Part shown: positions 663-24,447 of the stretch, one piece after another
How positions within the stretch are numbered: position 1 is the stretch's first letter
How the letters are laid out: the number at the start of each line of letters is the position of its first letter
From: Glycomyces sp. TRM65418
GTDB lineage: Bacteria > Actinomycetota > Actinomycetes > Mycobacteriales > Micromonosporaceae
Length of the DNA: 64,000 bases
NCBI RefSeq assembly: GCF_019710475.1
Contig: NZ_JAJFAX010000002.1
Span: forward strand, 372,001 to 436,000
Reading direction: 5' to 3'
Notes under the pieces: model-generated
The model's database searches: none
What the model was told of the DNA's origin: nothing
What the model saw: the letters and a program-made list of their open reading frames with translations, nothing else
Position numbers and translations under genes: made by a program

Positions 663-818
663 CGGTCACTGCAGGTCGCTCTCGCGCGACAAGCCGTATC
701 AGCAGCGGTTTCGCATGTGACGCCCGCGTGAACCGCGCGTTGGTCCATGCGTCACGGAACGTTCATCTAGGTAAACTTCACCAAACCATCATCCAAACCG
801 AACGAGGTGGCACTCGAC

Positions 819-1514: not shown

Positions 1515-1604
1515 GCAGCATCCGCACCGGCGGAGCCGGCGGGTGAGAAGCACGGGCGACACCTCGCGGTACCGCCCAGAACGACTGAGCAGAGGCACGG
1601 CGAG

Positions 1605-6262: not shown

Positions 6263-6266
6263 TCGG

Positions 6267-8863: not shown

Positions 8864-8865
8864 AC

Positions 8866-10158
8866 ATGAGAGTCTGTGTCGTCGCATTGGGCAAGATCGG
8901 ACTGCCGCTGGCAGTCCAGTTCGCCGCCAAGGGCCACGAGGTCATCGGCGCCGACGTCAACCCGAAGGTCGTCCAGGCCGTCAACGACGGGATCGAGCCG
9001 TTCCCGGGCGAGCACCTGCTGGCCGAGAAGCTCAAGGAGACCGTCACCGCCGGGACGTTGCGGGCCACCACCGACACCGCGGCCGCCGTCGCGGCGTCCG
9101 AGGCCGTGGTCATCGTCGTGCCGCTGTTCGTGGACGCCGAGGGCGTGCCGGACTTCGGCTGGATGGACGCCGCCACCCAGGCCGTCGCGAAGGGCCTCAA
9201 GCCGGGCACGCTCGTCTCGTACGAGACGACGCTGCCGGTGGGCACGACGCGCGAGCGCTGGGCCCCCATGCTCGAGGCGGGCTCGGGCCTGAAGGCGGGC
9301 GAGGACTTCCACCTGGTGTTCAGCCCCGAGCGGGTGCTGACCGGGCGGGTGTTCGCGGACCTGCGCCGCTACCCGAAGCTCGTGGGCGGCATCGACGCGG
9401 GCTCGGCCGAGGCGGGCGTGCGCTTCTACGAGGCGGTGCTCGACTTCGACGAGCGCGACGACCTGCCGCGCCCCAACGGGGTGTGGGACCTGGGCTCCGC
9501 GGAGGCCTCGGAGATGGCCAAGCTCGCGGAGACGACCTACCGGGACGTCAACATCGGTCTGGCGAACCAGTTCGCGCGCTTCGCGGACAAGCGGGGCCTG
9601 GACGTCATGAAGGTCATCGAGGCCTGCAACTCGCAGCCGTACAGCCACATTCACCGGCCCGGCATCGCCGTCGGCGGCCACTGCATCCCGATCTACCCGC
9701 AGATGTACCTGTGGAACGACCCGGACGCCACGGTCGTGCGCGCCGCCCGCCAGGCGAACGCCGCGATGCCCTCCTATGCGGCCGACGTGCTCGCCGCCGC
9801 TTACGGCGACCTCGCGGGCGCCGCGGTGCTGGTGCTCGGCGCGGCCTACCGCGGCGGCGTCAAGGAGACCGCGTTCTCCGGTGTCTTCCCGCTGGTGGAG
9901 GACCTGAAGGCGAAGGGCGCCACGGTCTTCGTGAGCGACCCGATGTACACCGAGGCCGAACTGGAGGCCGAGGGCCTCGTCCCGCACCGGGGTGAGGCCG
10001 TCACCGCCGCCGTGGTGCAGGCCGACCACGCCGAATACCGTTCGCTGTCGGCCGCGGACCTCCCCGAGGTGCGGGTCCTCCTGGACGGGCGCCGCGTGAC
10101 GGACCCGGCCGCGTGGGCGGGGCGCCGCCACATCGTCCTCGGCGGCGGGTCGGCATGA
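8866..10158 (+). CDS. Nucleotide-sugar 6-dehydrogenase (WbpA/WecC type)
   Basis: A 430-residue UDP-sugar dehydrogenase with three regions in order: an N-terminal NAD domain starting RVCVVALGKIGLPLA, a central dimer domain with EMAKLAETTYRDVNIGLANQ, and a C-terminal UDP-binding domain (VLVLGAAYRGGVKET). Cys273 in VGGHCIPIYP is the catalytic thiol that carries the oxidation from alcohol to carboxylate. The GHCIP form and length fit enzymes acting on UDP-GlcNAc or UDP-ManNAc rather than UDP-glucose. It would make the uronic acid needed by the WbpB/WbpE pair upstream. ATG at 8866 is preferred to GTG at 8860 because AGGAAG (8855-8860) is well placed for it. The next gene overlaps by ATGA. Confidence 0.85.
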   Translation: MRVCVVALGKIGLPLAVQFAAKGHEVIGADVNPKVVQAVNDGIEPFPGEHLLAEKLKETVTAGTLRATTDTAAAVAASEAVVIVVPLFVDAEGVPDFGWMDAATQAVAKGLKPGTLVSYETTLPVGTTRERWAPMLEAGSGLKAGEDFHLVFSPERVLTGRVFADLRRYPKLVGGIDAGSAEAGVRFYEAVLDFDERDDLPRPNGVWDLGSAEASEMAKLAETTYRDVNIGLANQFARFADKRGLDVMKVIEACNSQPYSHIHRPGIAVGGHCIPIYPQMYLWNDPDATVVRAARQANAAMPSYAADVLAAAYGDLAGAAVLVLGAAYRGGVKETAFSGVFPLVEDLKAKGATVFVSDPMYTEAELEAEGLVPHRGEAVTAAVVQADHAEYRSLSAADLPEVRVLLDGRRVTDPAAWAGRRHIVLGGGSA

Positions 10159-11138
10159 GCTGGCTGGTCACCGGGGGCGCCGGCTACATCGGCTCCCACG
10201 TGGTGCGGGCGATGACCGCCGCCGGTGAGCGGGTCGTCGTCTTCGACGACCTCAGTTCGGGCAGCAGCGCCCGCGTCCCGGCCGGCGTGCCGCTCGAGCA
10301 GGGCAGCGTCCTCGACCGGGAGCGCCTGGAGCAGGTGCTGCGCGAGCACGAGATCGCGGGCGTCGTCCACATCGCCGCCCGCAAACAGGTGGGCGAGTCG
10401 GTCGAGCGCCCGTTGGAGTACTACCGGGAGAACATCGAGGGCCTGCGCACGGTCTTGGAGGCCTCCGTGGCCGCCGGGGTCCGCGGCTTCCTGTTCTCGT
10501 CCTCGGCGGCGGTCTACGGGATGCCGGACGTCGACCTGGTCACCGAGGAGACGCCCTGCGCGCCGATGAGCCCGTACGGCGAGACCAAACTGGCCGGGGA
10601 GTGGCTGGTGCAGGCCGCGGGCCGGGCCCACGGCATGGCCACCGCCTGCCTGCGGTATTTCAACGTGGCCGGCGCGGCGGTGCCGGAGCTCGCCGACGAG
10701 GGCGTGTTCAACCTGATCCCGATGGTCTTCGACCGGATCACCAGGGGCGAGGCGCCGCTCGTCTTCGGCGACGACTACCCGACCGCCGACGGCACCTGCG
10801 AGCGCGATTACGTGCACGTCGAGGACGTCGCCTCCGCGCACCTGGCGGCGGCCCGCCGCCTCGCGGCCGACCCCGAGACCCGCCTGGTGCTCAACATCGG
10901 CCGCGGCGAGGGCGCCTCGGTGGCCCAGATGGCCGCGATGATCCTCGACATCACGGGCCGCGGTGACCTCCGGCCGGAGGTCACCGCGCGTCGCGCGGGC
11001 GACCCGGCGCGGGTCGTCGCCTCCGCGGACCTGGCTCGCAAGGAACTCGACTGGGCGGCGCGGTACGGCGTGCGCGAGATGGTCCGGTCCGCTTGGGAAG
11101 GCTGGCGCCTGCGGCACCCGGAGGCCGAGCGCCGGTAG
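10155..11138 (+). CDS. galE: UDP-glucose/UDP-GlcNAc 4-epimerase
   Basis: A 327-residue extended short-chain dehydrogenase. It begins WLVTGGAGYIGSHVV (NAD-binding glycine motif). The catalytic pair is Tyr141 and Lys145 in SPYGETK, with SSSAAVYG upstream. ARKQVGESVERPLEYY and CLRYFNVAGA are GalE-type substrate segments. It interconverts UDP-glucose and UDP-galactose or the N-acetyl forms, supplying galactose-type donors. It is the last gene of the plus-strand operon starting at 5165, overlapping the dehydrogenase by 4 nt, and ends before a strong hairpin at 11166-11199. Confidence 0.88.
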   Translation: MSWLVTGGAGYIGSHVVRAMTAAGERVVVFDDLSSGSSARVPAGVPLEQGSVLDRERLEQVLREHEIAGVVHIAARKQVGESVERPLEYYRENIEGLRTVLEASVAAGVRGFLFSSSAAVYGMPDVDLVTEETPCAPMSPYGETKLAGEWLVQAAGRAHGMATACLRYFNVAGAAVPELADEGVFNLIPMVFDRITRGEAPLVFGDDYPTADGTCERDYVHVEDVASAHLAAARRLAADPETRLVLNIGRGEGASVAQMAAMILDITGRGDLRPEVTARRAGDPARVVASADLARKELDWAARYGVREMVRSAWEGWRLRHPEAERR

Positions 11139-11209: not shown

Positions 11210-13321
11210 CTACCGCTGCTCGCCGAGGAACAGCCGGTCGAAGTCCGCGCTGACCACCGACCAGTCCCACGTGGACTGCGCGTATTTGGCGGCGAGGCGG
11301 GAGTGGTCGAGCCAGCTCTCCTCGGAGACGTTCACCTGGAGCACGCGCTGCGCCGCCGCCTCGGGCGTGTCGAGGACCCAGCCTTCGGGGTAGAGCGTGC
11401 GGGCGCTGTGGGCCTTGCCCGCGTAGAACGGCCAGTCGCGCACCACCGGGACCGCGCCGCTCGCCGCGCCCTCCATCAGGCCCACGTGGCAGCCCTCGCG
11501 CACCGAGGTGCTGAGGATGAAGCCGATGTCGGTGAGCTTGCCGGCGACGTCGTCGGTCGGTCCGAGCCGCAGCACGGCCCCGGCCTCGACGAGCGGTTCC
11601 AGCTCCTCCTCGAACTGCTTGGAGTACTTCTTGGAGGCCCGGCTGGCGCGCGGGTTCATGTCGCCGCCCACCAGCAGGAGCCGGTAGCGGTCGTCCCGCT
11701 CGCGGAGCCGGCGCAGGACCTCGAGCGCCCACAGCGGGTCCTTGGCGACCTGGCCGATGCCGACGAGGCCGAGGTTGAAGCGGGCGTCCGGGGTCTTCTC
11801 GCGGGCGAAGCCGCCGAGGTCCATGGCGTTGTGCAGGACGTGCATGCGCGGCGCGTGCGGGCCGCGCAGCTGCGGCACCAGCGAGGTGGTGAGGTCCTGC
11901 ACGTGGTCGGCGACGAAGACGAGGTCGTCGACGCGGGAGAAGTCGACCATGTGCGGGAAGCGGGTGAACGCCTCGTAGCTGTGGAGCCTGATGATGATGC
12001 GCGTGTCGCCGGGGTCGAGGTTCGTCAGCGCGGTGGCGGGGGCGGCGCACCAGTCGAGGAACACGGTGTCGGCCCAGTCCAGGTGCGGCCGCATGAGCTG
12101 CTCGAGCTGGGCGGCGTACGCGTCGTCGCCGCCCATCCGCTCCTGCATGACCCGCTGGTCCGACCGGGAGACCTTCTTGAGCACTTCCTCGGAGGCGACG
12201 TCCAGGTAGCGCACTTCGACGTCGGGGTGCGCGTCGTAGCGGTGGATGATGTGGCGCAGGAAGTTGGCGTTCTCGTTGGTGGTCAGCAGCAGCCGCAGCG
12301 GGCGGTCGGCCGGCGGCGGCGCGGCCGGGCGCAGCCGCCCGCGCGGCGTCATGACCGTCTGCATCGCGCGGGAGGAGTGGATCCGCTTGACGAAGCGGCC
12401 GGGGTCGGCGGTCAGCGGGGAGGTGAGCCCGTCGATGTGGGCGACGCGGTGGAAGGTCAGGAGCAGGGCATTCCGCAGGTTGCGAGCGGCCTCTTCGTAC
12501 CGACCTTCGGACTGGCGCAGGTCGGCGAGGTCGAGGAGCGCCTGCACGGCCGTGTCGAGGTGCGGCGGGACGATGCCGCGCTGGTAGTCCTGGTTCACCG
12601 CCGTCTCGAGCAGTTCGGCCTTGAGTGCGGGGTCGCTGACCTTGGAGGCGGTCAGCACGAGCGTGTACGTCGCGCCGCCGCGTCGGCCCGCCCAGTTCAA
12701 GGCCTCGGCGACCCGGCGTCCGATGGGGACGCGCAGGCCGGTCGGCACGCCCGGGACTCGCAGCGGGAGGCGCCACAGGCGCTCGCCGAGGGACCGGCGC
12801 ATGATGGGCCGGGCGGTGACGAGGCGCGCGGTGGCGTCGGGCAGCCGCCGCACGGCCCGGGCGCCGTCGCGCGCGACGAGGGACAGCGGCGGCCGGAAGG
12901 ACCCGGACGGCGCGACCCCGGTCCGCTTGAGCTCGCGCACCGCGTTGACGGCGGGGGCGAAGCCGTAGACGGCCTTGGCGGTGCGGTTGCGCTGGGCGAG
13001 CTGCCAGACGGTGTACACGGCCTGCTCGTCGAGGGCGACGAGCACGCCGGCCTTGCGGGCGCGCTCGCGCAGCCAGGAGTCGGAGCGGACGCGCAGCCAG
13101 ACCTGTTCGCCGCGCGGGAGCTGGACCGCCCGCCGCACCTTGGCCTGGACCAGGTCGTGGGTCTCGGCGAAGTCGAGCTCGTCCCGGTGCTCGCGGGCCG
13201 CGCGCGAGGGGATCAGCCCGCCGAAGACGACGCGGGCGCCTTCGGCGTTGAGCTTGTCCAGGGTGTCGGCGACCACGCTCATCGGCGGGGTCTTGCTGCA
13301 GACGAAGAGAACGTCGATCAC
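11210..13321 (-). CDS. Large two-part GT4-type glycosyltransferase with N-terminal half-Rossmann module
   Basis: A 703-residue protein. Residues ~1-130 form a Rossmann-like module opening VIDVLFVCSKTPP and ending around VLVALDEQAVYTVWQLA, resembling the small proteins at 18521, 21946 and 23803. A middle region (~130-330) includes a TPR-like stretch (EGRYEEAARNLRNALL). The C-terminal ~360 residues look like a GT-B transferase, with LLLTTNENANFL, VLHNAMD, NLGLVGIGQVAKDPL, LLLVGGDMNP and GFILSTSVREGCHVGLMEGAASGAVPV split across the nucleotide-sugar domain. The GTG start overlaps the upstream stop as GTGA. Donor and acceptor are unknown, and the assignment of the N-terminal part is inference. Confidence 0.7.
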   Translation of the reverse strand: MIDVLFVCSKTPPMSVVADTLDKLNAEGARVVFGGLIPSRAAREHRDELDFAETHDLVQAKVRRAVQLPRGEQVWLRVRSDSWLRERARKAGVLVALDEQAVYTVWQLAQRNRTAKAVYGFAPAVNAVRELKRTGVAPSGSFRPPLSLVARDGARAVRRLPDATARLVTARPIMRRSLGERLWRLPLRVPGVPTGLRVPIGRRVAEALNWAGRRGGATYTLVLTASKVSDPALKAELLETAVNQDYQRGIVPPHLDTAVQALLDLADLRQSEGRYEEAARNLRNALLLTFHRVAHIDGLTSPLTADPGRFVKRIHSSRAMQTVMTPRGRLRPAAPPPADRPLRLLLTTNENANFLRHIIHRYDAHPDVEVRYLDVASEEVLKKVSRSDQRVMQERMGGDDAYAAQLEQLMRPHLDWADTVFLDWCAAPATALTNLDPGDTRIIIRLHSYEAFTRFPHMVDFSRVDDLVFVADHVQDLTTSLVPQLRGPHAPRMHVLHNAMDLGGFAREKTPDARFNLGLVGIGQVAKDPLWALEVLRRLRERDDRYRLLLVGGDMNPRASRASKKYSKQFEEELEPLVEAGAVLRLGPTDDVAGKLTDIGFILSTSVREGCHVGLMEGAASGAVPVVRDWPFYAGKAHSARTLYPEGWVLDTPEAAAQRVLQVNVSEESWLDHSRLAAKYAQSTWDWSVVSADFDRLFLGEQR

Positions 13322-14712
13322 CGGGTGCGGCCCTTCTCGAGTTGCAGGTCGGCGGCCAGGCGCTGCACGGCCGCCGCCATGATGGTCTCGCGCCGGAACC
13401 GCTCGGCGTGCGCCAGCGCCGCGGCGCGCTGGTCGTCGGTGGCCTCCACCGCCAGGTGGGCGGCCTGCACGAACGCTTCGGCGATCGCCTCCCGGTCGAC
13501 GCCGCGCGAACCCGTCCACAGCGGGTGTCCTTTCAGGACGTTCACCGACTCGTGGTCGGCGGCGTGGGCCGACACGATCGGCAGCCCCGCGGCCATGTAC
13601 TCGTAGACCTTCCCGGAGGTCATGTAGCGGCCGCCGATGAGGATGTACACGAGCGCGTCCCACCAGGCGTAGGTGTCGGCGACGTCCGCTTTGAGCACGG
13701 GCCCGCCGTAGCTGACGCCGTCCGCCTCAGCGGCCCACAGCAGTTCGACGTGGCCTCCGGTGCCGCGGCGGGCGCCGCTGCCGATGTGGCCGCGGAACTC
13801 GAAGCGGGCGTTCGCGAGCAGCGGTTCGCGCTGGCGGGCGTCGCGCCAGGCGTCGAGGACGGTCTGCAGCAGCCCCCCGGGGAAGGTGGCGGTGCCGAGG
13901 TACCCGAACACCAGGCCCGACTCGGGGTCGGGGGCGCGCCTGCTCTGGGGGGCGCTGTCGGCGTCGTAGCCGTTGCGCACCACGTGCACGCGGTGCGCGA
14001 ACTCGGGGTAGCGGGCGCGGTAGTGCTCGGCGATCGGGTCGTTGACGACCCACAGGCTGATCGCGGAGCCGAGGATGCGCTCCTCCCAGCGGCCTTCCTC
14101 GGTGTCGCGGCCGAACGCCTCGGCGGCGCCGAGCACGTCGATCGACCAGCCGTCCCTGAAATCGACGGCGTAGGGGACCCGGGCCTCTTCCCAAAGCCTC
14201 CAGGCCGCGGCGAGGCTGGTGTACGGCACGCAGCTGGTCAGCAGCAGGTCGGCCGGCTTCGACTGGTGCACGCGCAGCACGGCCTCCTCGAGCGCGCCCC
14301 GCCAGCCGCCGAAGGTCGGCTCGGGGAAGGCCTCCAGGTTGCGTTCGCGCAGCGAGCGGATCCAGGCGGCCGGGTCGGCGGCGCGCCGCTCGCTGAAGCG
14401 TCGGATGTCCGTCTCCAGGTCCGCGCGCCGCAGTGGGAGCTTGACGACCTCGACGCGCGGATCGACCTGCTCGGACAGGGTGTGGTCCACCCCCGAGTCC
14501 AGTTCCCACGACTCGTCCTCGATCGTGACGACCGTGACGTCCCAGCCTTGGGCCGCGAACTGGTTGGCGGTCTCGCGCATCCGGTACGCGCAGCTCTTCG
14601 CGGCCGGGGGAAACCCGACGGCGACGTAGATGAGATGAGGGCGCTGCTGGCCTTCCCCCGTTTCGGGCGCTCGATCGGTTCGAGCGGCTCCGGAGGTTGA
14701 GAACGCTGACAT
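13318..14712 (-). CDS. Glycosyltransferase family 4 (type C1)
   Basis: A 464-residue GT-B transferase. The N-terminal domain starts LIYVAVGFPPAAKSCAYR and contains YAVDFRDGWS before the linker. The C-terminal nucleotide-sugar domain has VRNGYDADS, VFGYLGTATFPGG and KVYEYMAAGLPIVS, the usual place for the donor-binding acidic motif. It is clearly paralogous to the gene at 22466 (same order: FPP..., DFRD/DYRDSW, VRNGWD, KVFEYMASGKPIVS). The start ATG lacks a strong ribosome site; a TAACGT box 8 nt upstream may give a near-leaderless message. The 4-nt GTGA overlap couples it to the 703-residue protein downstream. Linkage unknown. Confidence 0.8.
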   Translation of the reverse strand: MSAFSTSGAARTDRAPETGEGQQRPHLIYVAVGFPPAAKSCAYRMRETANQFAAQGWDVTVVTIEDESWELDSGVDHTLSEQVDPRVEVVKLPLRRADLETDIRRFSERRAADPAAWIRSLRERNLEAFPEPTFGGWRGALEEAVLRVHQSKPADLLLTSCVPYTSLAAAWRLWEEARVPYAVDFRDGWSIDVLGAAEAFGRDTEEGRWEERILGSAISLWVVNDPIAEHYRARYPEFAHRVHVVRNGYDADSAPQSRRAPDPESGLVFGYLGTATFPGGLLQTVLDAWRDARQREPLLANARFEFRGHIGSGARRGTGGHVELLWAAEADGVSYGGPVLKADVADTYAWWDALVYILIGGRYMTSGKVYEYMAAGLPIVSAHAADHESVNVLKGHPLWTGSRGVDREAIAEAFVQAAHLAVEATDDQRAAALAHAERFRRETIMAAAVQRLAADLQLEKGRTR

Positions 14713-14812
14713 GATTATGGACGTTATCACGGGCGGCAGCGGCTCTGAACTGCCTAGATCCGGGCTGTGAGCCGTTCGGCCCCCTGTCGGCGGCGCCCCG
14801 CGCGAGCGCCTG

Positions 14813-15418
14813 CTAGGCGGCGGTCGCCTCGGTCTCGTGCAGCGTTCCGTCGCGCTCCTCGAACAGGGCCTCGGTGTCCGGGCAGCGCCAGCGGCCGTTC
14901 GCTTCGGCTTCGAGCCGCCGCCCGGTGCGCCCGACCCAGCCGACGCGCTTCGCGGGCACGCCCATGACGAGGGCGTAGTCGGGCACGTCCTTGGTGACGA
15001 CCGCGCCCGCCGCGACCATGGCCCACCGGCCGATGCGGACGGGCGCGACGCAGACGGCGCGCGCGCCGATCGAGGCGCCCTCGGCGACGTCGACGCCGAC
15101 GGGCTCCCAGTCGGCGGCGCTCTTGAGCGATCCGTCGGCGGCGACCGCGCGCGGGTTGTGGTCGTTCGTGAACACCACCGCCGGTCCGACGAAGACGCCG
15201 TCGGCGAGCCGCGCGGGCTCGTACACGAGCGCATAGTTCTGGATCTTGACGTTGTCGCCGATCTGGACGCCGGTGCCGATGTAGGCGCCGCGGCCGACCA
15301 CGCAGCGCTCGCCGAGCGCGGCGTGCTCGCGGATCTGGGCGAGCTCCCACACGGAGCTGCCGTCGCCGACCTGCGCCGTCTCGTGGACTTGAGCGGTTTC
15401 CTGGACTCGGTAAGCCAT
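14813..15418 (-). CDS. WbpD-type N-acetyltransferase (left-handed beta-helix)
   Basis: A 201-residue hexapeptide-repeat acetyltransferase. The chain shows successive imperfect hexapeptides (VGDGSSVWELAQIREHAALGERCVVGRGAYIG in spaced repeats), then VFTNDHNPRA, a loop motif typical of WbpD/WlbB enzymes, and VPDYALVMGVPAKRVGWVGRTG. These enzymes acetylate the 3-amino group of UDP-2-acetamido-3-amino-glucuronate with acetyl-CoA. That is the step after WbpA, WbpB and WbpE, whose homologues lie at 8866, 6267 and 5165, although this gene is on the opposite strand inside the GT arm. GAAGG precedes the ATG by about 6 nt. This is a strong family match; the exact sugar is inferred. Confidence 0.85.
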   Translation of the reverse strand: MAYRVQETAQVHETAQVGDGSSVWELAQIREHAALGERCVVGRGAYIGTGVQIGDNVKIQNYALVYEPARLADGVFVGPAVVFTNDHNPRAVAADGSLKSAADWEPVGVDVAEGASIGARAVCVAPVRIGRWAMVAAGAVVTKDVPDYALVMGVPAKRVGWVGRTGRRLEAEANGRWRCPDTEALFEERDGTLHETEATAA

Positions 15419-15477
15419 GTGCTGCCTTCAACTGGGTCGGGTTGCGATGCGGAGGGCCGGTCGGAGGGGCCGGTCCG

Positions 15478-17091
15478 TCAGCCGATGCCGGACACGCAGC
15501 GGTAGACGTCGGACAGGATCTCGGCCTGCCGCTCCCACGTCCACTCGTCGAGCCGGACCCGGCCGTCGCCGTACGCGCGGCGGTAGCGGTCGGGGTCGGC
15601 GAGCACCGCCTTGGCGGCGCGCACGAAGTCCTCGGTGTCCTCGGCGCGGAAGACCTCGCCCTGGCCGGTCGCGCGGACGGTCGCCGACATGGCCTTGACG
15701 TCGCTGACGAGGATCGGCAGCCGCGCGTGCGAGTACTCGAAGAACTTGGTGATGAGCGCGATCTCGTGGTTGGGCCAGTGGTGGATCGGAATGACGCCCA
15801 GGTCCGCGTCGGAGAGGTGCTCGACCACCCGGAAGTACTCCACATAGGGCGTGAAGTGCATCCGGTCGAGGACGCCGAGCTCCTCGCCGAGGGCCTGCAG
15901 CGCCTTCGCGTTCGGCCCGTTGGGCTTCGACACGACGAACGCCGCGTGGACCTCCGGCATCGAGGGCAGCGCCCTGACCATGATGTCGAGGCCCCGCTGG
16001 AGGCTGTCGCTGCCGCTGTAGACCATGAGCGGCACGTCGGGACCGAGCCCGCAGCGCTCGCGCAGGCTCGGGACGCCCGCGAGGGTCCCGTCCTCCTCGG
16101 CCAGGGGCGCCCACAGGCGGCGGCCGGACTTGCGGTCGTACAGCTCGAGTTCCTGGTCGGGGTCGAGCGCGGCGCCGTCGACGCCGGTGGGCGCGTTGAG
16201 GACGACGGCGGGCGGCTCGGCGAGGCCGAAGTCGCGCTGGAGCAGTTCGCCGAGCGCGGCCGAGACGGTGGTGACGGCGTCGGCGTAGGGCGCGAACTCG
16301 CGCTCGTGGGCGAGCTGCGACACGTACCAGCGCGGGTGGCTGCGCCAGGGCCGGATGCCGGGCAGGTACTCGTGCGCGTCCCACACGAGTTTCACGTCGC
16401 GCCCGCGGGCCCGGCCCCGGAGCTTGGCCCGCGCGGCGACGCCGAGCACGGGGAAGTCGTTGGCGTGGATGATGTCGGGGTCGATCTCGTCGATGGCCTT
16501 GCCGAAGGCGAGTTCGTAGCGCCACAGGTCGGGGTCGAGCCGGCGCCAGGCCCGGTCGCCCATCAGCTTGGCCCAGAACGCCGTGGTGAAGCGGTCGAGC
16601 GGGGCGTCCATCTCGGTGCGCTTGCGCGCCAGCGCTTCGCTGCGGCGCACCCGCATCCGGGTCCATTTGGTGCGGACCTTGAACCCGGTGCGCTTGGCCT
16701 GGAGCGCGGCCCACTTGGCGGTGCGCGGGACGAGCGGGCGCTCGCGGTCGACCACGGCGTACGCGGCCTTGGCCGCGATGACCTCGGCCCGCCGGGCGCG
16801 CAGGTCCTGGCGCTTCCACTCGGCCTTGGGGCCGGGCGGATAGGCGAGGGGGTCGCGCAGCCAGGCGGGGCGGAACTCGTGCGGCCGCTGCTGGATGCCC
16901 ACGGGGAGAGGGATCAGCTGGACCCGCGCCTTGCCGAGGGTGCCCTCGTAGCGGCGGCGGTCGGGGGAGATGCCGATGAGGGTCACGTCCCAGCCCAGCT
17001 CGGCGATGGAGCGCGCCTCTTTCTGGACCCTGGAATCGACGCGGACCGTGTTCGGCACCAACATGACCACACGAGAGCGCGATTCGTTCAA
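15478..17091 (-). CDS. Glycosyltransferase family 4 (type A1)
   Basis: A 537-residue GT-B enzyme with a TTG start preceded by GAGGAG. The N-terminal domain has VVMLVPNTVRVDSRVQKEA and the ISPDRR segment. A basic helical insert (~residues 90-180) precedes IIHANDFPVLGVAARAKLR and LVWDAHEYLPG. The donor half carries VYSGSDSLQRGLDIMV, DADLGVIPIHHWPNHEIALITKFFEY and TGQGEVFRAEDTEDF. It is a close paralogue of the protein at 19224, sharing long runs in every domain. Transcription runs leftward from the divergent region at 17092-17321, heading the minus arm (GT4, acetyltransferase, GT4, large GT4). Sugar and acceptor are not determinable from sequence. Confidence 0.8.
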   Translation of the reverse strand: MNESRSRVVMLVPNTVRVDSRVQKEARSIAELGWDVTLIGISPDRRRYEGTLGKARVQLIPLPVGIQQRPHEFRPAWLRDPLAYPPGPKAEWKRQDLRARRAEVIAAKAAYAVVDRERPLVPRTAKWAALQAKRTGFKVRTKWTRMRVRRSEALARKRTEMDAPLDRFTTAFWAKLMGDRAWRRLDPDLWRYELAFGKAIDEIDPDIIHANDFPVLGVAARAKLRGRARGRDVKLVWDAHEYLPGIRPWRSHPRWYVSQLAHEREFAPYADAVTTVSAALGELLQRDFGLAEPPAVVLNAPTGVDGAALDPDQELELYDRKSGRRLWAPLAEEDGTLAGVPSLRERCGLGPDVPLMVYSGSDSLQRGLDIMVRALPSMPEVHAAFVVSKPNGPNAKALQALGEELGVLDRMHFTPYVEYFRVVEHLSDADLGVIPIHHWPNHEIALITKFFEYSHARLPILVSDVKAMSATVRATGQGEVFRAEDTEDFVRAAKAVLADPDRYRRAYGDGRVRLDEWTWERQAEILSDVYRCVSGIG

Positions 17092-17113
17092 TTTCTGGTC
17101 TCCTCGGGACTGT

Positions 17114-17119
17114 TAGAAT
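17114..17119 (+). promoter_or_regulatory. Candidate -10 box in the divergent region of the GT cluster
   Basis: TAGAAT, close to the consensus, sits in the 230-bp gap between the two divergent GT arms. It would start the plus-strand arm about 200 nt before the GTG at 17322, leaving a leader that contains a small open frame (17128-17325). No convincing -35 element is visible. Confidence 0.4.
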
Positions 17120-17127
17120 CCGGCATC

Positions 17128-17325
17128 ATGGCGCTGACGGGATCGCTCGATTCGGGCCGAAGGAGCATCGGCTCCCGGAATCGCCGCGCCCTCCCGGCGG
17201 AGGGACGGGCGCTGCCCACGGTAGCGCACGGCCGGGTTCCGGAGGCGCACGCCCCTGCGGTGCGGTGCGATCCCCGGAGTCTCCGACCTGCGGAATCGGC
17301 TGCTGGGACGGGCGGTGACCTGTGA
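17128..17325 (+). other. Possible leader ORF ahead of the plus-strand GT operon
   Basis: ATG at 17128 opens a 65-codon frame rich in Arg, Ala, Gly and Pro that ends TGA at 17323-17325, overlapping the GTG start of the GT4 gene at 17322. No known family is recognisable and it may simply be an untranslated leader. The 4-nt overlap and the TAGAAT box 8 nt before its ATG are the reasons to keep it. Confidence 0.2.
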
Positions 17326-18524
17326 CTTTCGGTCCCGACCGCCGCGTAGCCGTCGTCACCCCGTGGTACCCCACCGCCCGCACCCCGTACGGGGGCACGT
17401 TCGTGCAGGAGGTCGTCAAGGCGGTCGCCGGACGCTGCGAGCGGGTCGCGGTCTACCACACCGACCCGTGGACCCTGCCCCAGGATCCCGAGCAGGCCGC
17501 CCGCGTCGAGCGCGCTCAGCGCGAAATCGCGACCCGCGCGGCCGCGGGCTTCCCCGGTGTGGCGGGCTCCGTGGTGCGCCACCTCCCGGCGATGATGCCG
17601 CCCGGCGGCGACTGGGCCGCTCAGGCGCGCGCGCACGCCGAGTGGACGGCCCTGGCACTCGGGGGCGAACCGATCCCCGAGCCGGTGGTCCACGCCCATG
17701 CGGGCATCCGCGGCGGTTACGCCGCGCTCGAGAACGCCCGCCCGGACGCGCGCGTGTTCGTCACCGAGCACGCCTCCTTCCTCGCGGACGTCCTCGCCGA
17801 ACCCGCGGCCCGCGACCTGTACGACGAGGTCGTCGACTGCGCCACGCGGTTCTTCGTGGTCGGCTCCGCCCTCGGCGCCCTGGTCGCCGAGGCCTACCCG
17901 CACCACGCCGGGAAGGTCGAGCTGATCGCCAACCCCGTCGACTTCGACGTACCGCCCAAGGCCCCGGTCGACCGGATCCGGCGCTGGCTCACCGTCGGGT
18001 CCCTCATCCCGCGCAAACGCGTCGACCACCTCATCGAATGCCTGGCGCTGTGCCGCAAGGAGGACCCGGAGCTCACCCTCACCGTCGTCGGCACGGGGCC
18101 CGAGCGCGCCCGGCTCGCCGAGTTGGCCCGGTCCCGCGGCGTCGCCGAGGCGGTCGACCTGCGCGGCGCGGTGGACCCGGCCGAGATCCCCGCGATCATG
18201 CGCGAGCACGACCTGTTCGTCCACGCCAGCCGCAGCGAGACCTTCGGGGTGGTCGTCGTCGAGGCGGTCGCGGCCGGCCTCCCGGTCATCGCCACCCGCT
18301 GCGGTGGCCCCGAGGAGCTGTTGGCCGGGGTCGAGGACGCCGCCGGGGCCGTGGTCGACGTGGACGACTCGCCCGAGCCGTTCGTCACGGCCTACCGCGA
18401 CCTGGCCGCGCGGTTCCCCGCCCGGCTCGACCTGGAACGGGCCCGAGAGTCCTTGCGCGCCAAATACTCCCATCAAGCGGTCGCCGACCGCCACGAGCAG
18501 GTCTGGTTCGGTCCGACCGCATGA
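17322..18524 (+). CDS. Glycosyltransferase family 4 (type B1)
   Basis: A 400-residue retaining GT-B transferase with a GTG start. The N-terminal half includes VAVVTPWYPTARTPYGGTFVQE, VVHAHAGIRGGYAAL and VFVTEHASFL. The C-terminal half has IANPVDF, WLTVGSLIPRKRVDHL, VGTGPERARL, HDLFVHASRSETFGVVVVEA (the EX7E-type donor site) and CGGPEELL. It is paralogous to the protein at 20741. It is the first gene of the plus-strand arm, and its stop overlaps the ATG of the small protein at 18521. It likely transfers a hexose or amino sugar from a UDP/GDP donor onto the growing oligosaccharide at the membrane; specificity is unknown. Confidence 0.82.
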   Translation: MTFGPDRRVAVVTPWYPTARTPYGGTFVQEVVKAVAGRCERVAVYHTDPWTLPQDPEQAARVERAQREIATRAAAGFPGVAGSVVRHLPAMMPPGGDWAAQARAHAEWTALALGGEPIPEPVVHAHAGIRGGYAALENARPDARVFVTEHASFLADVLAEPAARDLYDEVVDCATRFFVVGSALGALVAEAYPHHAGKVELIANPVDFDVPPKAPVDRIRRWLTVGSLIPRKRVDHLIECLALCRKEDPELTLTVVGTGPERARLAELARSRGVAEAVDLRGAVDPAEIPAIMREHDLFVHASRSETFGVVVVEAVAAGLPVIATRCGGPEELLAGVEDAAGAVVDVDDSPEPFVTAYRDLAARFPARLDLERARESLRAKYSHQAVADRHEQVWFGPTA

Positions 18525-19150
18525 GCGAACCCAGGCGCGTCGCCGTCATCGCCCCCGGCGGGGACGCCCGCCTCGCCGCCGTCGCCGCCGCCAATCGGGC
18601 CGTCCTCGACGGCTGCGCGGTCCTTGCGCTGCTCGGACCGCCCCGTCCGAACGCCGACGGCCGCTTCGACGCGGCGGTCACCGTCCGCCACGCAGACGCG
18701 ACCGTCGACGACGCCTGGAGCGCTTTCCGGAGGCGATGGCTCATCGACGTCCCCGGCCTCGCGCTGGGCCGACTGCGCCGCGGCCCGCTGCGCCGCCCCG
18801 CGGGCAGGGCCCGCCGCGCCTACGACGTCGCCGTGGCCGAGCCGCTGGAGCGGCGCCTGCTCGAGGACGCGCCGGCGCGGGCCGCCGCGGCCGACGTCCG
18901 CGGCTTCCGCCCCGACGTGGTGATCCTGGTGAGCAATGACGCCATCGTCTTCGCCGTGGCGCTCCTGCGGTGGACGGTGCGCCGCGGGGTCCAGGTCGCG
19001 TGCGTCTACCCGGGGCCGGTCGACACCGCACCGGTCGCCCCCGTCGGCGCGCCCCTGCGCGTGCGTCAGCGCGGTGCTTCGCACGATCGAGGTGAACATG
19101 CCGCCACGATTCCCCCCGAATTTGTCGAACGTTCGGAAAACGCCGGGTGA
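18521..19150 (+). CDS. Small half-Rossmann protein coupled to a GT4 (X1)
   Basis: I do not recognise a named family. The 209-residue protein starts RRVAVIAPGGDARLAAVAAANRAV (written here only to its conserved core VAVIAPGG), a beta-alpha unit like the N-terminus of GT4 enzymes. A basic amphipathic region follows (GLALGRLRRGPLRRPAG), then a second unit FRPDVVILVSNDAIVFAVALL. No donor-binding domain follows. The last ~35 residues look disordered. Two further genes (21946, 23803) and the N-terminus of the 703-residue protein share this order. Its ATG overlaps the upstream GT4 stop (ATGA), so it is probably made in step with that enzyme. It may be an acceptor-side partner or a relic of a truncated transferase. 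Confidence 0.55.
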   Translation: MSEPRRVAVIAPGGDARLAAVAAANRAVLDGCAVLALLGPPRPNADGRFDAAVTVRHADATVDDAWSAFRRRWLIDVPGLALGRLRRGPLRRPAGRARRAYDVAVAEPLERRLLEDAPARAAAADVRGFRPDVVILVSNDAIVFAVALLRWTVRRGVQVACVYPGPVDTAPVAPVGAPLRVRQRGASHDRGEHAATIPPEFVERSENAG

Positions 19151-19223
19151 ATCATTGGGTTTCGTACGATGTGACCCACCGGGAGGCCTCTCATGCGGTC
19201 CCGGTCGGAGTACGGAGGAGCGG

Positions 19224-20744
19224 ATGGCAGTACACCCCCAGCGGATCGTCATGCTGGTGCAGAACGGCGTCACCGGGGACTCGCGCATCCAGAAGGAGGC
19301 CGAGTCCGCCGCGGCGGCCGGTTACGCGGTGACCCTCCTCGGCGTCTCCCCCGACCGCAGGCCTCAGGAGTGGACCCTCGGCGAGGCCGAGGTGCGCCTG
19401 GTGCCGGTCGACCGCGTCTTCGACCGCCGCCGCCACGAGATGCGCCGCGGCTGGCTGCGATCCCCGCTCGCCTACCCGCCCGGCCCGCTCGCCGCCTACC
19501 GCAACCGGCAGGCCCGCGCCTGGCGCACCGACCTCGACACCGAACGCGACCTCCGCGGCCCGGGCCTGGGCGCGACGCTCGCACTGGCCCCCCGCGAGGC
19601 CGCGTACCGGCTGTTCTGGGGCTGGACCGGGCTGCGCCGCCGAGCGACCCGCCGCCTCGAGCAGCGCCGGGCCGCCGCGGCGGCACCGATCGACCGCGCC
19701 GCCGCGTCCTTCTGGAAGGCGGTCGCCGGCGACCGGGCCTGGCGCCGCCTGGACCCCGCCCTCTGGGACCTGGAGCTCTCCTTCGCTCCGGTCATCGACG
19801 AGCTGCGGCCCGATCTGATCCACGCCAACGACTTCCAGATGCTCGGCGTCGGCGCCCGCGCGAAGCTCCGCGCCGCCCGCCGCGGCCGGGAGATCAAGCT
19901 CGTGTGGGACGCCCACGAGTACCTGCCGGGCATGAAGGCCTGGAAGAACCACCCGTGGTGGAAGGACGCGCAGCTCGGCCACGAGCGCGAGTTCGCCCCT
20001 CACGCGGACGCGGTCGTCACCGTCTCCGACACGCTCGCCTCGATGATGCGCGAGCGCCACCGCCTCCCCGAGACACCCGAAGTGGTCATGAACGTGCCCG
20101 ACTTCGGCGACGCGGACGAGGCTCCCGACCCGAGCCTGCGCGAGCGCTGCGGGATCGGCCCCGGCACGCCGCTCATGGTCTACTCCGGGGCGCCCCTCGA
20201 ACAGCGCGGCCTCCACATCCTCGTCGAGGCGCTGCCCTCGCTCCCGGGGATCCACGCGGCGTTCATCGTCTCCAAACCGCACTGGCGGTACGTCCTGCGA
20301 CTGCAGTCCCGCGCCGCCGAACTCGGCGTGGCCGACCGCGTCCACGTGCTCGAATACGTGCCCCACCGTCAGGTCGTGCCCTTCCTCGCGGAGGCCGACC
20401 TCGGCGTGATCCCCATCCACCACTGGGGGAACCACGAGATCTCCCTCATCACCAAGTTCTTCGAGTACGCGCACGCGCGCCTCCCGATCGTCGTCAGCGA
20501 CGTGAAGACCATGTCGGCGCTGGTGCGGCGCACCGGTCAGGGCGAGGTGTTCCGCGCCGAGGACACCGAGGACTTCATCCGCGCCGTCAAAGCCGTGCTC
20601 GAGGACCCCGAGACCTACCGCAAGGCGTACGCCGAGGCCGTGCCGCTCGAGGAGTGGACCTGGGCGAGTCAGTCGACGCGCCTGATCGGCGTGTACCGGC
20701 GCCTGCTGGGCGCCGCGACCGACGAGGAGAGGCGGGCGCAGTGA
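19224..20744 (+). CDS. Glycosyltransferase family 4 (type A2)
   Basis: A 506-residue GT-B enzyme, close paralogue of the 15478-17091 product. Shared blocks are RIVMLVQNGVTGDSRIQKEA, the SPDRR segment, LIHANDFQMLGVGARAKLR, LVWDAHEYLPGM, MVYSGAPLEQRGLHI, DLGVIPIHHWGNHEIS and TGQGEVFRAEDTEDF. A basic helical insert lies between the two N-terminal subdomains. The ATG at 19224 has GGAGGAG at 19214-19220. It is separated from the preceding gene by 73 nt and overlaps the following GT4 by 4 nt (GTGA). Duplication of A- and B-type genes across the divergent arms suggests the two arms build related linkages. Confidence 0.8.
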   Translation: MAVHPQRIVMLVQNGVTGDSRIQKEAESAAAAGYAVTLLGVSPDRRPQEWTLGEAEVRLVPVDRVFDRRRHEMRRGWLRSPLAYPPGPLAAYRNRQARAWRTDLDTERDLRGPGLGATLALAPREAAYRLFWGWTGLRRRATRRLEQRRAAAAAPIDRAAASFWKAVAGDRAWRRLDPALWDLELSFAPVIDELRPDLIHANDFQMLGVGARAKLRAARRGREIKLVWDAHEYLPGMKAWKNHPWWKDAQLGHEREFAPHADAVVTVSDTLASMMRERHRLPETPEVVMNVPDFGDADEAPDPSLRERCGIGPGTPLMVYSGAPLEQRGLHILVEALPSLPGIHAAFIVSKPHWRYVLRLQSRAAELGVADRVHVLEYVPHRQVVPFLAEADLGVIPIHHWGNHEISLITKFFEYAHARLPIVVSDVKTMSALVRRTGQGEVFRAEDTEDFIRAVKAVLEDPETYRKAYAEAVPLEEWTWASQSTRLIGVYRRLLGAATDEERRAQ

Positions 20745-21949
20745 ACGCCGACAGACACGTCGCGGTGGTCACGCCCTGGTACCCCGATCCGCAGGTGCCC
20801 TACGCGGGGGCCTTCGTCGAGGCGCAGGTCGAAGCCGTCTCGGGCGGGTGCGCGCGACTGGACGTGTACCACCTCAAGAGCTGGTCCGTCGGCGCCGTGG
20901 GCCGACCGCTGGAGGCGAACCCCGAACTCCTGGACCTCCACACGCGGCTCCTGGCGCGCTCGCGGGTGCCGCTCGCGACCGCCGGAGGGGCCGTGCTCCA
21001 CCGAGTCCCCACGCTCACCCCGCGCGACACGGCCTGGGTCACCCACTCCGACGCCTCGGCCCGGTGGCTGCGCGAAGCCCTGGGCGGCGAGCCGCTGGCC
21101 GCGCCGATCGTCCACGCGCACGTGCCGATCACCGCGGGCTGGGCGGCACTCGAGAACGCCCGCCCCGACGCGAAGGTCTACATCACCGAGCACTCCTCCT
21201 TCCTCGACCGGGTCCTGGAGCAGCCGCGGGCCCGCGCCCGCTACGAGGAGGTGCTCGAACGGGCCGACGGGTTCTTCGTCGTCGGCGAGCCCCTGCACGA
21301 CCGGATCGCCGCCGAGTTCCCGCACCTGGCCGGGAACATCGAGTACCTGTCCAATCCGATCGACTTCGGCGGCCCGCGCCGCGAGGCGCCCGCGGTGCTG
21401 CACCGCTGGCTCTCGGTCGCGGCCCTGAACGAACGCAAGCGGATCGACTACCTGCTGGAGGCGTTCCGGCGCTGCCGCGACCGCGTCCCCGACCTCACGC
21501 TCACCCTCGCCGGCGACGGCAAACTCCGCAAGGACCTCGGCGCGCTCGCCCGCGACCTCGGATTGGACGACGCGGTGACGTTCGTCGGCTCCGTCGCGCC
21601 CAGAGAGGTCCCCGGGCTCATGGCCTCCCACGACCTGTTCGTCCACACCAGCCGCCACGAGACCTTCGGCGTCGTCGTGGTCGAGGCCCTGGCCGCGGGC
21701 ACGCCGGTCCTGGTGAGCCGCTGCGGCGGCTCGGACCAGGTGCTGCGCGGCATCGAATCCGAGGCCGGGCAGCTGTTCGACGTGGACGACGACCCGGACG
21801 TGCTCGTCGCCGCCTATCTCGAACTGCGCGAACGCCACCCCGACAAGACGGACGTGCCCGCCGCCCGCGAGCGCCTGCGCGCGCAGTACTCCTACGAGAC
21901 CGTGGCCGAACGCCACTTCCAGATCTGGGACGGAGGCGCCGACCGATGA
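20741..21949 (+). CDS. Glycosyltransferase family 4 (type B2)
   Basis: A 402-residue GT-B transferase paralogous to the one at 17322. It opens VAVVTPWYPDPQVPYAGAFVEA, then has VHAHVPITAGWAALENARPDA and YITEHSSFLDR. The donor half shows LSNPIDFGG, WLSVAALNERKRIDYLLEA, LAGDGKLRKDL, HDLFVHTSRHETFGVVVVEA and CGGSDQVL. The GTG start overlaps the preceding stop. Its own stop overlaps the ATG of the 179-residue X2 protein, the same arrangement as B1-X1. Donor sugar not determinable. Confidence 0.82.
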   Translation: MNADRHVAVVTPWYPDPQVPYAGAFVEAQVEAVSGGCARLDVYHLKSWSVGAVGRPLEANPELLDLHTRLLARSRVPLATAGGAVLHRVPTLTPRDTAWVTHSDASARWLREALGGEPLAAPIVHAHVPITAGWAALENARPDAKVYITEHSSFLDRVLEQPRARARYEEVLERADGFFVVGEPLHDRIAAEFPHLAGNIEYLSNPIDFGGPRREAPAVLHRWLSVAALNERKRIDYLLEAFRRCRDRVPDLTLTLAGDGKLRKDLGALARDLGLDDAVTFVGSVAPREVPGLMASHDLFVHTSRHETFGVVVVEALAAGTPVLVSRCGGSDQVLRGIESEAGQLFDVDDDPDVLVAAYLELRERHPDKTDVPAARERLRAQYSYETVAERHFQIWDGGADR

Positions 21950-22485
21950 TCGTGCTGTTCGTGGCGCCCAAGAGCGCCTGGCGGCAGGCGCTCGCCGCCG
22001 AGACCCGCGCCGCCGCCGACGCCGGGCACGAGGTCCGCGTCGTCGCGCAGGAGCACCGGGACTTCACGCTCGCTCCCCTCGACCCGCGCGTCGAGACCCA
22101 CTGGATCGCGGTGATCGACCCGGGCGAGGCCGAACCGGCCCTCGTCGGGCTCGTCCTGCGCCGCCTCCCCCTCGGGCTGCTGCGGCTGCTCGGCCGCGGG
22201 CCCCTGCACGGCCTCGCCGACCGGGCCGCCAGGCGCTGGCGGCGCACCGTCCTCGGCCCGATCGAGCAGCGCCGACTGCCCGAGCTGGAGGCGCTGCGCG
22301 AGGCCCGCCGCACCGAGGCGGTCCGCGCGGCGGTCGCCCGGTGGCGGCCGGACTGGATCGTGCTCCACGAGCCGCACGCGGTCGAGCTGGCCGTGTCCTG
22401 GCTCCCTGAACTCCTCGACGCCCGGCCGGACCTGGTGACGACCTTCTCCTTCGAGACCCGAGCGGATGCCGACCATGCGATCTGA
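21946..22485 (+). CDS. Small half-Rossmann protein coupled to a GT4 (X2)
   Basis: A 179-residue protein with no close named family. It begins MIVLFVAPKSAWRQAL and has a middle basic helix (RRLPLGLLRLLGRGPL, then RRWRRTVLGPIEQRRL). The second beta-alpha unit is WRPDWIVLHEPHAVELAVSWL, followed by ARPDLVTTFSFETRAD, where a normal GT4 would continue with its linker and donor-binding domain. Instead it stops. ATG overlaps the upstream stop (ATGA). The last 20 nt overlap the next GT4 start in another frame. It looks like the acceptor half of a GT-B enzyme standing alone. Whether it partners a neighbouring GT4 is inference. Confidence 0.55.
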   Translation: MIVLFVAPKSAWRQALAAETRAAADAGHEVRVVAQEHRDFTLAPLDPRVETHWIAVIDPGEAEPALVGLVLRRLPLGLLRLLGRGPLHGLADRAARRWRRTVLGPIEQRRLPELEALREARRTEAVRAAVARWRPDWIVLHEPHAVELAVSWLPELLDARPDLVTTFSFETRADADHAI

Positions 22486-23806
22486 CCGGCTGCGCCTGCT
22501 CTACCTGGCGTTCTTCTTCCCGCCTTCGCGCTCCAGCGGAGTCTTCCGCGCCCGCGCGACGGCGAACCACTTCGCCGAACAGGGCTGGGACGTCACCGTG
22601 TTCAAGGCCCCCGACGAGTTCTTCGAGCGGGTCACCGGTTCGGTCGACCCCGAGCTGACCGCCACCGTGGACCCGCGGATCGAGCTCGTCGCCCCTCCGG
22701 TCAGCCACTTCCAGTGGGAGACCGACCTGCGCCGCTTCGGACGTTTCCGAGGGAACTTCCCATTCCTCGCCAAGCGCCTGCACCGCTGGCAGCAGCGGCG
22801 GATCTTCCCCGACAAGTACGTCTCCTGGGGCGCCTCCTCGCTCCGCGAGGCCCTGCGCCGCCACCGCGAGCGCCCGTTCGACCTGGTCGTCGCCACCGGG
22901 AACCCGTTCGCGGCCTTCGGCGCGGCGTGGGCGTTCGGGAAGCTCACGGGCCGCCCCTACGTCGTCGACTACCGCGACTCCTGGACGCTGGACCAGTTCG
23001 CGAACGCGCCGTTCTTCCCGCCGGAGCACCCGGCGTGGAAGTGGGAGCGGCGCGTCCTCCGCTCGGCCGCGGCGTCACTGCACGTCAACGCGAACATGCT
23101 CGAGTGGCACGCCGAGCGCTATCCGGAGGCCGCCGACCGGATGCAGGTGGTCCGCAACGGATGGGACCCTGATGTGCTCCCCGAACCGGAGGCGACGCCC
23201 TCGGCGGACGAGGACCGGCCGCTCGCGTTCTCGTACATCGGCACCCTCACGCCGGTCATGCCGATCCAGGAGACCTTGGCGGGCTTCCGGCGGCTGCGCG
23301 AGACCGGCCGCCACCCCGGCGCACGACTGGACCTGTACGGCCATTTCGGATTCTTCGCGGGCAGCGAGGGCCGTCTGCGCACCGACCTGGGCCTGGACGA
23401 GCCGATCGAGGGCGTCCACTACCGAGGCGCGGTCCCCAAACCGCGGATCGGCTCCGCCTACGCCGCCAGTGACGTGCTCATGTTCGTCACCGGCGGCTCG
23501 AAGTACGTCACCACCGGAAAGGTCTTCGAGTACATGGCCTCGGGCAAGCCGATCGTGTCGGTCCACGAGCCCGGCTGCGCCGCCGAGGAGGTGCTCCGCG
23601 GCTATCCGCTGTGGTACGTCCCCGAGAGCCTCGCCCCGGACGACATCGCGGTGGCGATGGCCGAGGCGGGCGACGCGGCCCGCAAGAGCGATCCGGACGT
23701 GGCCGCGCGGGCGCGTGAGCACGCCGCCTCGTTCACCAGGGACAAGGCGCTCGAACGGTTCGAGCAGTGGTCCCGCGAGACTGTGGCGAAAGGGGGCGGC
23801 AGGTGA
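22466..23806 (+). CDS. Glycosyltransferase family 4 (type C2)
   Basis: A 446-residue GT-B transferase related to the 13318-14712 product. Features are LLYLAFFFPPSRSSGVFRAR, WDVTVFKAPDEFF, GRPYVVDYRDSWTLD, VNANMLEWH, VVRNGWDPD, FSYIGTLTPVMPIQETL and KVFEYMASGKPIVSVH. Two ATGs are possible, 22466 and 22475; both overlap the preceding gene and neither has a clearly better ribosome site (GAGCGG at 22460-22465 could serve the second). The C-terminus overlaps the next small gene as GTGA. Type C enzymes occur once in each arm of the cluster. Sugar unknown. Confidence 0.8.
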   Translation: MPTMRSDRLRLLYLAFFFPPSRSSGVFRARATANHFAEQGWDVTVFKAPDEFFERVTGSVDPELTATVDPRIELVAPPVSHFQWETDLRRFGRFRGNFPFLAKRLHRWQQRRIFPDKYVSWGASSLREALRRHRERPFDLVVATGNPFAAFGAAWAFGKLTGRPYVVDYRDSWTLDQFANAPFFPPEHPAWKWERRVLRSAAASLHVNANMLEWHAERYPEAADRMQVVRNGWDPDVLPEPEATPSADEDRPLAFSYIGTLTPVMPIQETLAGFRRLRETGRHPGARLDLYGHFGFFAGSEGRLRTDLGLDEPIEGVHYRGAVPKPRIGSAYAASDVLMFVTGGSKYVTTGKVFEYMASGKPIVSVHEPGCAAEEVLRGYPLWYVPESLAPDDIAVAMAEAGDAARKSDPDVAARAREHAASFTRDKALERFEQWSRETVAKGGGR

Positions 23807-24447
23807 CCGACACGCTCGAGACCGCCCCCGAGCGGGTGGTCGTGGTGCTCTTCCGCAGCGGCGCGGTCAAGCGCGTCAACGACTATGCGGCCGATCTGAT
23901 CCGCCGCGGCGTCGCGGTGACCGCGCTCGTCGCCGACGGCCAGGGCTGGGGTCGCGCCCTGCCGCTCCACCCCGGCATCGAGGTGTACTCGCTGGGCCGC
24001 ACCGAGAACCGCAACCCCCTGCTGTGGACGTACGTGGCGCTGGTGGAGCGCCTCCCCGGCGGGGTGCTCCGCCGCCTCCGCGAGCGGTTGCCCGGTCCGC
24101 TCGGACGGGCCGCCGGTTTCGCCGAGCGCGTCCACCGCAAGATCGCCGGGAAGCTCCGCAAGCACCTGTTCTGGCCGGTGTACCGCCCGCTGCGCTCCCA
24201 GGCGATGCGCCGTCTGGCGCTGCGCCGTCTCGACGCGCTCCGCCTCGACGGGGTCGCGCGGGTGATCTGCGCGGACGAGTCGACGATCCCGTTCGGCTGG
24301 GCCCTGGCGCGCCGCCGTCCCGACTTGGAGGTCACGCGGGCCCTGGACTCTTCAGTCTACGAGCACCGCCCCGTCGTCGCGTCCTCCGTCCCGTGGGACC
24401 CCGAGGAGCCCGGCGCGGCCGAGCGGCCGCCGTACATGCAGGTGTGA
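23803..24447 (+). CDS. Small half-Rossmann protein coupled to a GT4 (X3)
   Basis: A 214-residue protein without a recognised family. The order matches X1 and X2: RVVVVLFRSGAVKRVNDYA, then VAVTALVADGQGWG, a basic central helix region (ERLPGGVLRRLRERLPGPLG), a second unit ARVICADESTIPFGWALARRR with PDLEVTRALDSS, and a short tail of ~40 residues ending PYMQV. There is no donor-binding half. The GTG start overlaps the stop of the C2 transferase. It is the last gene of the plus-strand arm; a 178-nt gap without obvious genes follows before proline dehydrogenase. Confidence 0.55.
   Translation: MTDTLETAPERVVVVLFRSGAVKRVNDYAADLIRRGVAVTALVADGQGWGRALPLHPGIEVYSLGRTENRNPLLWTYVALVERLPGGVLRRLRERLPGPLGRAAGFAERVHRKIAGKLRKHLFWPVYRPLRSQAMRRLALRRLDALRLDGVARVICADESTIPFGWALARRRPDLEVTRALDSSVYEHRPVVASSVPWDPEEPGAAERPPYMQV

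Follow-up and report, generated by a model that had tools for sequence, protein, structure and literature searches.

To our knowledge, how cytoplasmic glycosyltransferases cooperate in building regular polymers is poorly understood. A gene block of Glycomyces sp. TRM65418 raises one aspect of this problem: what are the short, glycosyltransferase-like proteins encoded between its complete GT4 enzymes? The block lies within a stretch of 64,000 nucleotides, called here the window, and holds three GT4 subfamilies (A, B and C) in two copies each, both halves of which are recognized by Pfam, in some cases below threshold. On the minus strand are a 703-residue glycosyltransferase (11210..13321), the C-type C1 (13318..14712, with the ATG at 14712 as its likely start by eye) and the A-type A1 (15478..17091, start uncertain), which has no short gene behind it. 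On the plus strand follow the B-type B1 (17322..18524), with both halves and intact TEH and EX7E motifs, X1 (18521..19150; 209 aa), the A-type A2 (19224..20744), the B-type B2 (20741..21949), X2 (21946..22485; 179 aa), the C-type C2 (22466..23806, start at 22466 or 22475), X3 (23803..24447; 214 aa), and then a proline dehydrogenase gene (Pfam). X1 and X2 are half-glycosyltransferase proteins of the XB type and X3 of the XC type, as defined below. The initial annotation had noted that X1, X2, X3 and the 703-residue protein all start inside the stop of an upstream GT4 gene, and this is the case (ATGA for X1/B1 and X2/B2, GTGA for X3/C2 and 703/C1). As a hallmark of X the coupling fails. The start of B2 lies within the stop of A2 (GTGA) and C2 overlaps the end of X2, and overlapping starts and stops were therefore rejected as X-specific evidence.

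Judged from their sequences, X1, X2 and X3 are real proteins of one family, designated X. Pairwise BLASTP among them gave weak matches (E 0.026, 0.072 and 0.64), and X2 showed no similarity to the 703-residue protein (E 1.0). Although these single comparisons are weak, profiles based on relatives link the three, and they are alike beyond composition. Specifically, an X2 profile from a small sequence set matched X1 at 2.4e-10 and X3 at 1e-8, the XB-type and XC-type profiles matched each other with a probability of 99.2 over 182 columns, and profiles also connect the three with the X proteins of other genera. In an alignment of 20 rows, only two columns are invariant and three nearly so. The pattern originally proposed as common to the small proteins, xVxxxExxAVxxAVxxL, does not extend to all of them, its E being absent from X1. 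The impression that the family has no name was borne out, since Pfam, NCBIfam and PDB sequences gave isolated weak matches only: the GT4 N-domain models of Pfam matched two of the 20 members scanned (best E 0.011), the NCBIfam scan of 20 members yielded four families, each seen in one member (best E 0.0048), and the best PDB match had an E of 0.072. No paper on the family was present among the literature matches listed, and the available passages of two papers on Actinoplanes polysaccharides do not mention it (PMC13390465, PMC12691653). Among 121 genomes searched, including that of the strain itself, orthologues of X3 were found in 16 of 22 genomes of the genus (50-66% identity), and those of X2 in the same 16 (39-65% identity, with one partial match at 71%). 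X1 is divergent: its branch is long, and none of the 21 other genomes of the genus yielded a close orthologue.

Profile comparisons further indicate homology between X and the N-terminal half of the C-type GT4s, the acceptor half, with X ending after the fifth strand. A profile of 100 X domains matched the C N-half with a probability of 95.3 (E 2e-8, 137 columns; hhalign), the alignment covering columns 2-155 of the 224 in that half. The match to the A N-half reached 20% over 35 columns only, and similarity to the B N-half was not detectable (0.2%). Values did not exceed 6% against the GT4 C-terminal halves and 2% for reversed controls, and they were below 2% against seven unrelated families from the same loci; all these hhalign values are single comparisons. 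The small proteins had been described as running to the point where a GT4 enters its linker. Instead, X stops about 70 residues short of it, and as an N-terminal GT-B half it is partial, with the end of the half missing. The claim that no donor-binding half follows stands: X1-X3 end at 179-214 aa, and no Pfam glycosyltransferase C-domain was found in them or among the 20 family members. Because X has neither a donor-binding half nor EX7E, it cannot be a stand-alone GT4 enzyme.

The Rossmann fold anticipated for X was checked by structure prediction of X2. The AlphaFold2 model (15 rows; pLDDT 81.7, pTM 0.72) has five strands, with a helix of 46 residues between strands 3 and 4, and predicts a half-Rossmann fold. 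With this model as the query, Foldseek returned nothing at E <= 0.001. Its leading matches were GT-B glycosyltransferases (best E 2.1e-3, query TM 0.37, the matched half not given), mostly of the GT1 type and not GT4 according to our own labelling. Together, profiles and model support the assignment of X as an N-terminal GT-B half. By eye, A1 and A2 also carry a long basic insert in their N-halves that resembles the X helix, yet X was behind none of 54 A-type genes in the loci examined.

Homologues were sought in other genomes, and X adjoins GT4 genes there as well. Strong X matches and B-type GT4s occur in an identical set of 63 among 354 Micromonosporaceae genomes (Fisher value 2e-71, which ignores relatedness), and a C2-type GT4 is present in 62 of these 63. 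Fourteen genomes with weak X matches only (E 4e-5 to 8e-4) were excluded from the 63, and the searches scored few first-look candidates per genome. A sample of the phylum gave X matches in 5 of 346 genomes, namely the strain's own and four others at E 1e-6 to 7e-4. A weak match in a further locus (G050:C6, L054) was unsupported on re-search. The loci examined include some picked as X carriers and another set chosen mostly as carriers of C1-type genes. In them, free X lies directly behind B (40) or C (28) in all 68 cases, with a 4-nt overlap at 50 of the 68 junctions, and every one of 56 B genes has X behind it or fused to it. Three C2-type genes (L055, L150, L151) are without an X immediately downstream. 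Within the genus, B2-X2-C2-X3 are consecutive in all 15 loci examined besides the window, and proline dehydrogenase adjoins the block in 13 of the 15. Variants include an additional A-type gene upstream of B (L039, L040, L042), a duplicated B-X (L043) and a second unit (L044 and L046, that of L046 being cut by the contig end).

In a midpoint-rooted tree of 107 X domains, from sets assembled by score thresholds, the grouping follows role. Free X behind B forms one group of 40 (95/87), and free X behind C (28) together with the fused C-terminal X (16) makes up one side (100/97). On the B side, the fused N-terminal X (16; 100/98) and the N-terminal domains of 703-type proteins (7; 100/99) are each a single group. 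There are two X lineages, XB and XC, distinct by role. The dN/dS ratio was about 0.16-0.67 in nine X pairs, all below 1. Five pairs of B or C genes gave 0.17-0.28, and a single pair of altered fused B gave 0.50. By this measure selection on X is purifying, if somewhat relaxed. Mirror-tree correlations from 25 gene sets (B-XB 0.85, C-XC 0.84, XB-XC 0.87, XB-C 0.83, B-C 0.81, B-XC 0.77) did not single out the cognate pairs of X and GT4.

Outside Glycomyces, X·B·X is a single open reading frame in 16 loci, in 12 of which it lies directly behind a C gene; three further single frames of this kind were seen (L179-L181). Given the sorting of the X tree by role, the fusion flanks B with an XB-like domain in front and an XC-like domain behind, while C remains separate. 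Its N-terminal X has no long helix and a lower median net charge (+5.5), so the helix is not a requirement for every X. All 40 free B retain TEH and EX7E. In contrast, 6 of the 16 fused B depart from the TEH motif (L051, L165, L149, L152, L158, L163), and four of these six have also lost an EX7E glutamate (L051, L165, L149, L152), while both EX7E glutamates are kept in L158 and L163. Both X domains are retained in all six. The altered fused B may possibly be a catalytically dead scaffold, and this loss of active-site residues with retention of X leads us to infer a scaffold role in some lineages. A model of the X·B·X fusion (pLDDT 76.7, pTM 0.58) is informative on domain content and not on packing. 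Five of the six loci with an altered fusion also have a free B-X pair. In another locus (L185, ~7037-8524, minus strand) there is a fusion of the N-terminal X with B (XN·B) without the C-terminal X, and the C gene is absent from the locus; search results suggest similar XN·B fusions in other genomes of its genus.

The 703-residue protein consists of an N-terminal domain (N703, residues ~1-135), a linking region and a GT-B glycosyltransferase (C703). Its N-terminus had been thought to share the architecture of the small proteins, which holds for profile-to-profile comparison and not for ordinary HMM search or for BLASTP with X2. A profile of 26 N703 domains matched all X with a probability of 95.8 over 129 columns (13.5 against XB alone, 81 against XC and 92 against the fused XN), with reversed controls below 1% and seven unrelated families at or below about 1%. 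The X HMMs matched 0 of 19 N703 segments in an ordinary search. Because the match appears only from profile to profile, N703 is graded as a probable, divergent X-like domain. An N703·C703 protein lies behind each of the 19 additional C1 genes whose downstream sequence could be seen (L166-L183), and most of these genes come from genomes that have neither B nor X. The C1-[N703·C703] pair also occurs in L038, L039, L040, L042, L048 and L159. Three loci (L146, L157, L164) have a C703-type glycosyltransferase without the X-like N-domain that the Glycomyces C703 carries. The fused form had also been likened to a Rosetta stone. The 703-residue protein is a weaker one than supposed, since it joins the X-like domain to C703 and not to the upstream C1; the X·B·X fusions fill this place better.

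Overall, it is well supported that X is an accessory partner of B and C, a case that rests on co-occurrence, position and fusion. Because B and C are complete GT4s, X is an extra N-half. This differs from the closest systems of half enzymes. In Alg14/Alg13 and EpsE/EpsF, as described in passages of PMC8993221, a separate polypeptide corresponding to a GT-B N-terminal half works with a partner, fused versions exist, and the role of Alg14 is membrane association. X resembles Alg14 and EpsE as a separate N-terminal half beside its partner with known fusions. However, according to the same passages, their partner is a C-terminal half only and the two make one enzyme, whereas B and C hold both halves. 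In addition, Alg14-type family models were absent from the Pfam and NCBIfam scans of the 20 X members and from the Pfam scan of the window. Compared with the GT4 family itself (CAZy), X is homologous to the N-half but is without the donor-binding half and EX7E.

The charge of X and its neighbor genes suggest what such a partner might do. The median net charge is +12 for X behind B, +15.5 for X behind C and +16 for the fused C-terminal X, compared with -8.5 for B and -1 for C. The window (5165-7289, 8860-11138 and 14816-15418) contains genes for a DegT aminotransferase, a Gfo/Idh oxidoreductase, a UDP-sugar dehydrogenase, an epimerase and a hexapeptide acetyltransferase, which look like an amino-uronic acid nucleotide-sugar pathway and resemble UDP-2,3-diacetamido-uronic acid synthesis. 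Among the genes scanned in the window, L097, L146 and L171, the DegT aminotransferase was found in all four and the Gfo/Idh oxidoreductase in all but L146. The acetyltransferase and the UDP-sugar dehydrogenase were seen in the window and in L097; L097 and L146 each have a UDP-GlcNAc 2-epimerase.

On balance, we favor X as a non-catalytic subunit, derived from a GT4 half, that docks a paired GT4 machine to the membrane or acceptor in the synthesis of an amino-uronic polymer. X would have arisen by duplication of the acceptor-side (N-terminal) half of a C-type GT4, and XB and XC would be made by translational coupling directly after the complete B and C. X, B and C would probably form one membrane-associated complex, in which the activities of B and C add two sugars to a lipid-linked polymer of the cell wall, likely one with an N-acetylated amino-uronic acid in it. 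X could stabilize or position B and C and provide an extra surface for docking to acceptor or membrane, chiefly via the long helical insert, which is strongly basic. The docking model also draws on published work. GT4 N-terminal halves are generally acceptor-binding, as stated in passages of PMC12691653, and the teichuronic acid synthetase of Micrococcus luteus, also an actinobacterium, is a membrane complex of two glycosyltransferases that makes a polymer of Glc/ManNAcA disaccharides (PMC3005890, in part). Here only the gene context, namely B, C and the sugar genes close by, hints at a comparable function. The two systems are compared by description, and the passages of that paper report two subunit sizes, ~52.5 and 54 kDa, and no half-glycosyltransferase subunit.

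A bolder and rather unlikely extension of the docking model would treat B, C, XB and XC as a four-part polymerase, in which the duplicated, catalytically empty acceptor halves serve as a second track for acceptor docking and hand the growing chain between two alternating GT4s. X·B·X proteins that have lost catalysis, in some lineages, would then persist purely as a docking scaffold for C, and the X-like domain joined to a glycosyltransferase behind C1 would be a second use of the same principle.

Other readings of X were weighed against docking. The one that fares best, possible but clearly less probable, is a stabilizer or allosteric activator like EryCII, with which B and C would fold or be activated and which would make no contact with acceptor or membrane. 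The gene overlap and exact co-occurrence suit an obligate stabilizer, and the persistence of X domains where the fused B has an altered active site suits a structural role. The EryCIII/EryCII pair is a complete glycosyltransferase with a non-catalytic partner, as proposed for X, and EryCII both stabilizes and allosterically activates its enzyme, binding close to the putative acceptor site but outside it (PMC3391682, in part). However, EryCII is homologous to P450s. X is instead GT4-like, an acceptor half whose insert is strongly basic, and no P450 family appeared in the Pfam scans of the window proteins and the 20 X members. The likeness to a GT4 acceptor half and the basic insert favor a membrane or acceptor surface over this role.

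Many Rossmann domains bind nucleotides. The predicted Rossmann-like half fold of X would thus fit an independent enzyme or sensor, for instance a binder of nucleotide sugar or polymer that regulates the pathway outside the glycosyltransferase complex. This is improbable, given the missing donor half, the few conserved columns (two invariant and three nearly invariant in 20 rows) and the position of X beside or fused to B or C in all loci examined. Truncation relics of duplicated GT4 genes, the alternative named in the initial annotation, would accord with homology to the C N-half without a donor half and with the isolation of X1, but this reading was rejected as very improbable because two lineages are kept across genera with open frames, fusions, exact co-occurrence, role-sorted trees and dN/dS below 1.

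The docking model concerns unnamed GT4-like acceptor halves that are inherited strictly with complete GT4s and naturally fused to them, and it makes clear predictions about subunits. It also carries a warning for annotation, as short glycosyltransferase-like genes between GT4s may be maintained subunits and not debris. At the start of the window (9-3311) are genes for an IspD-type cytidylyltransferase, an NTP transferase and a CDP-glycerol glycerophosphotransferase-domain protein, a set that is teichoic-acid-like.
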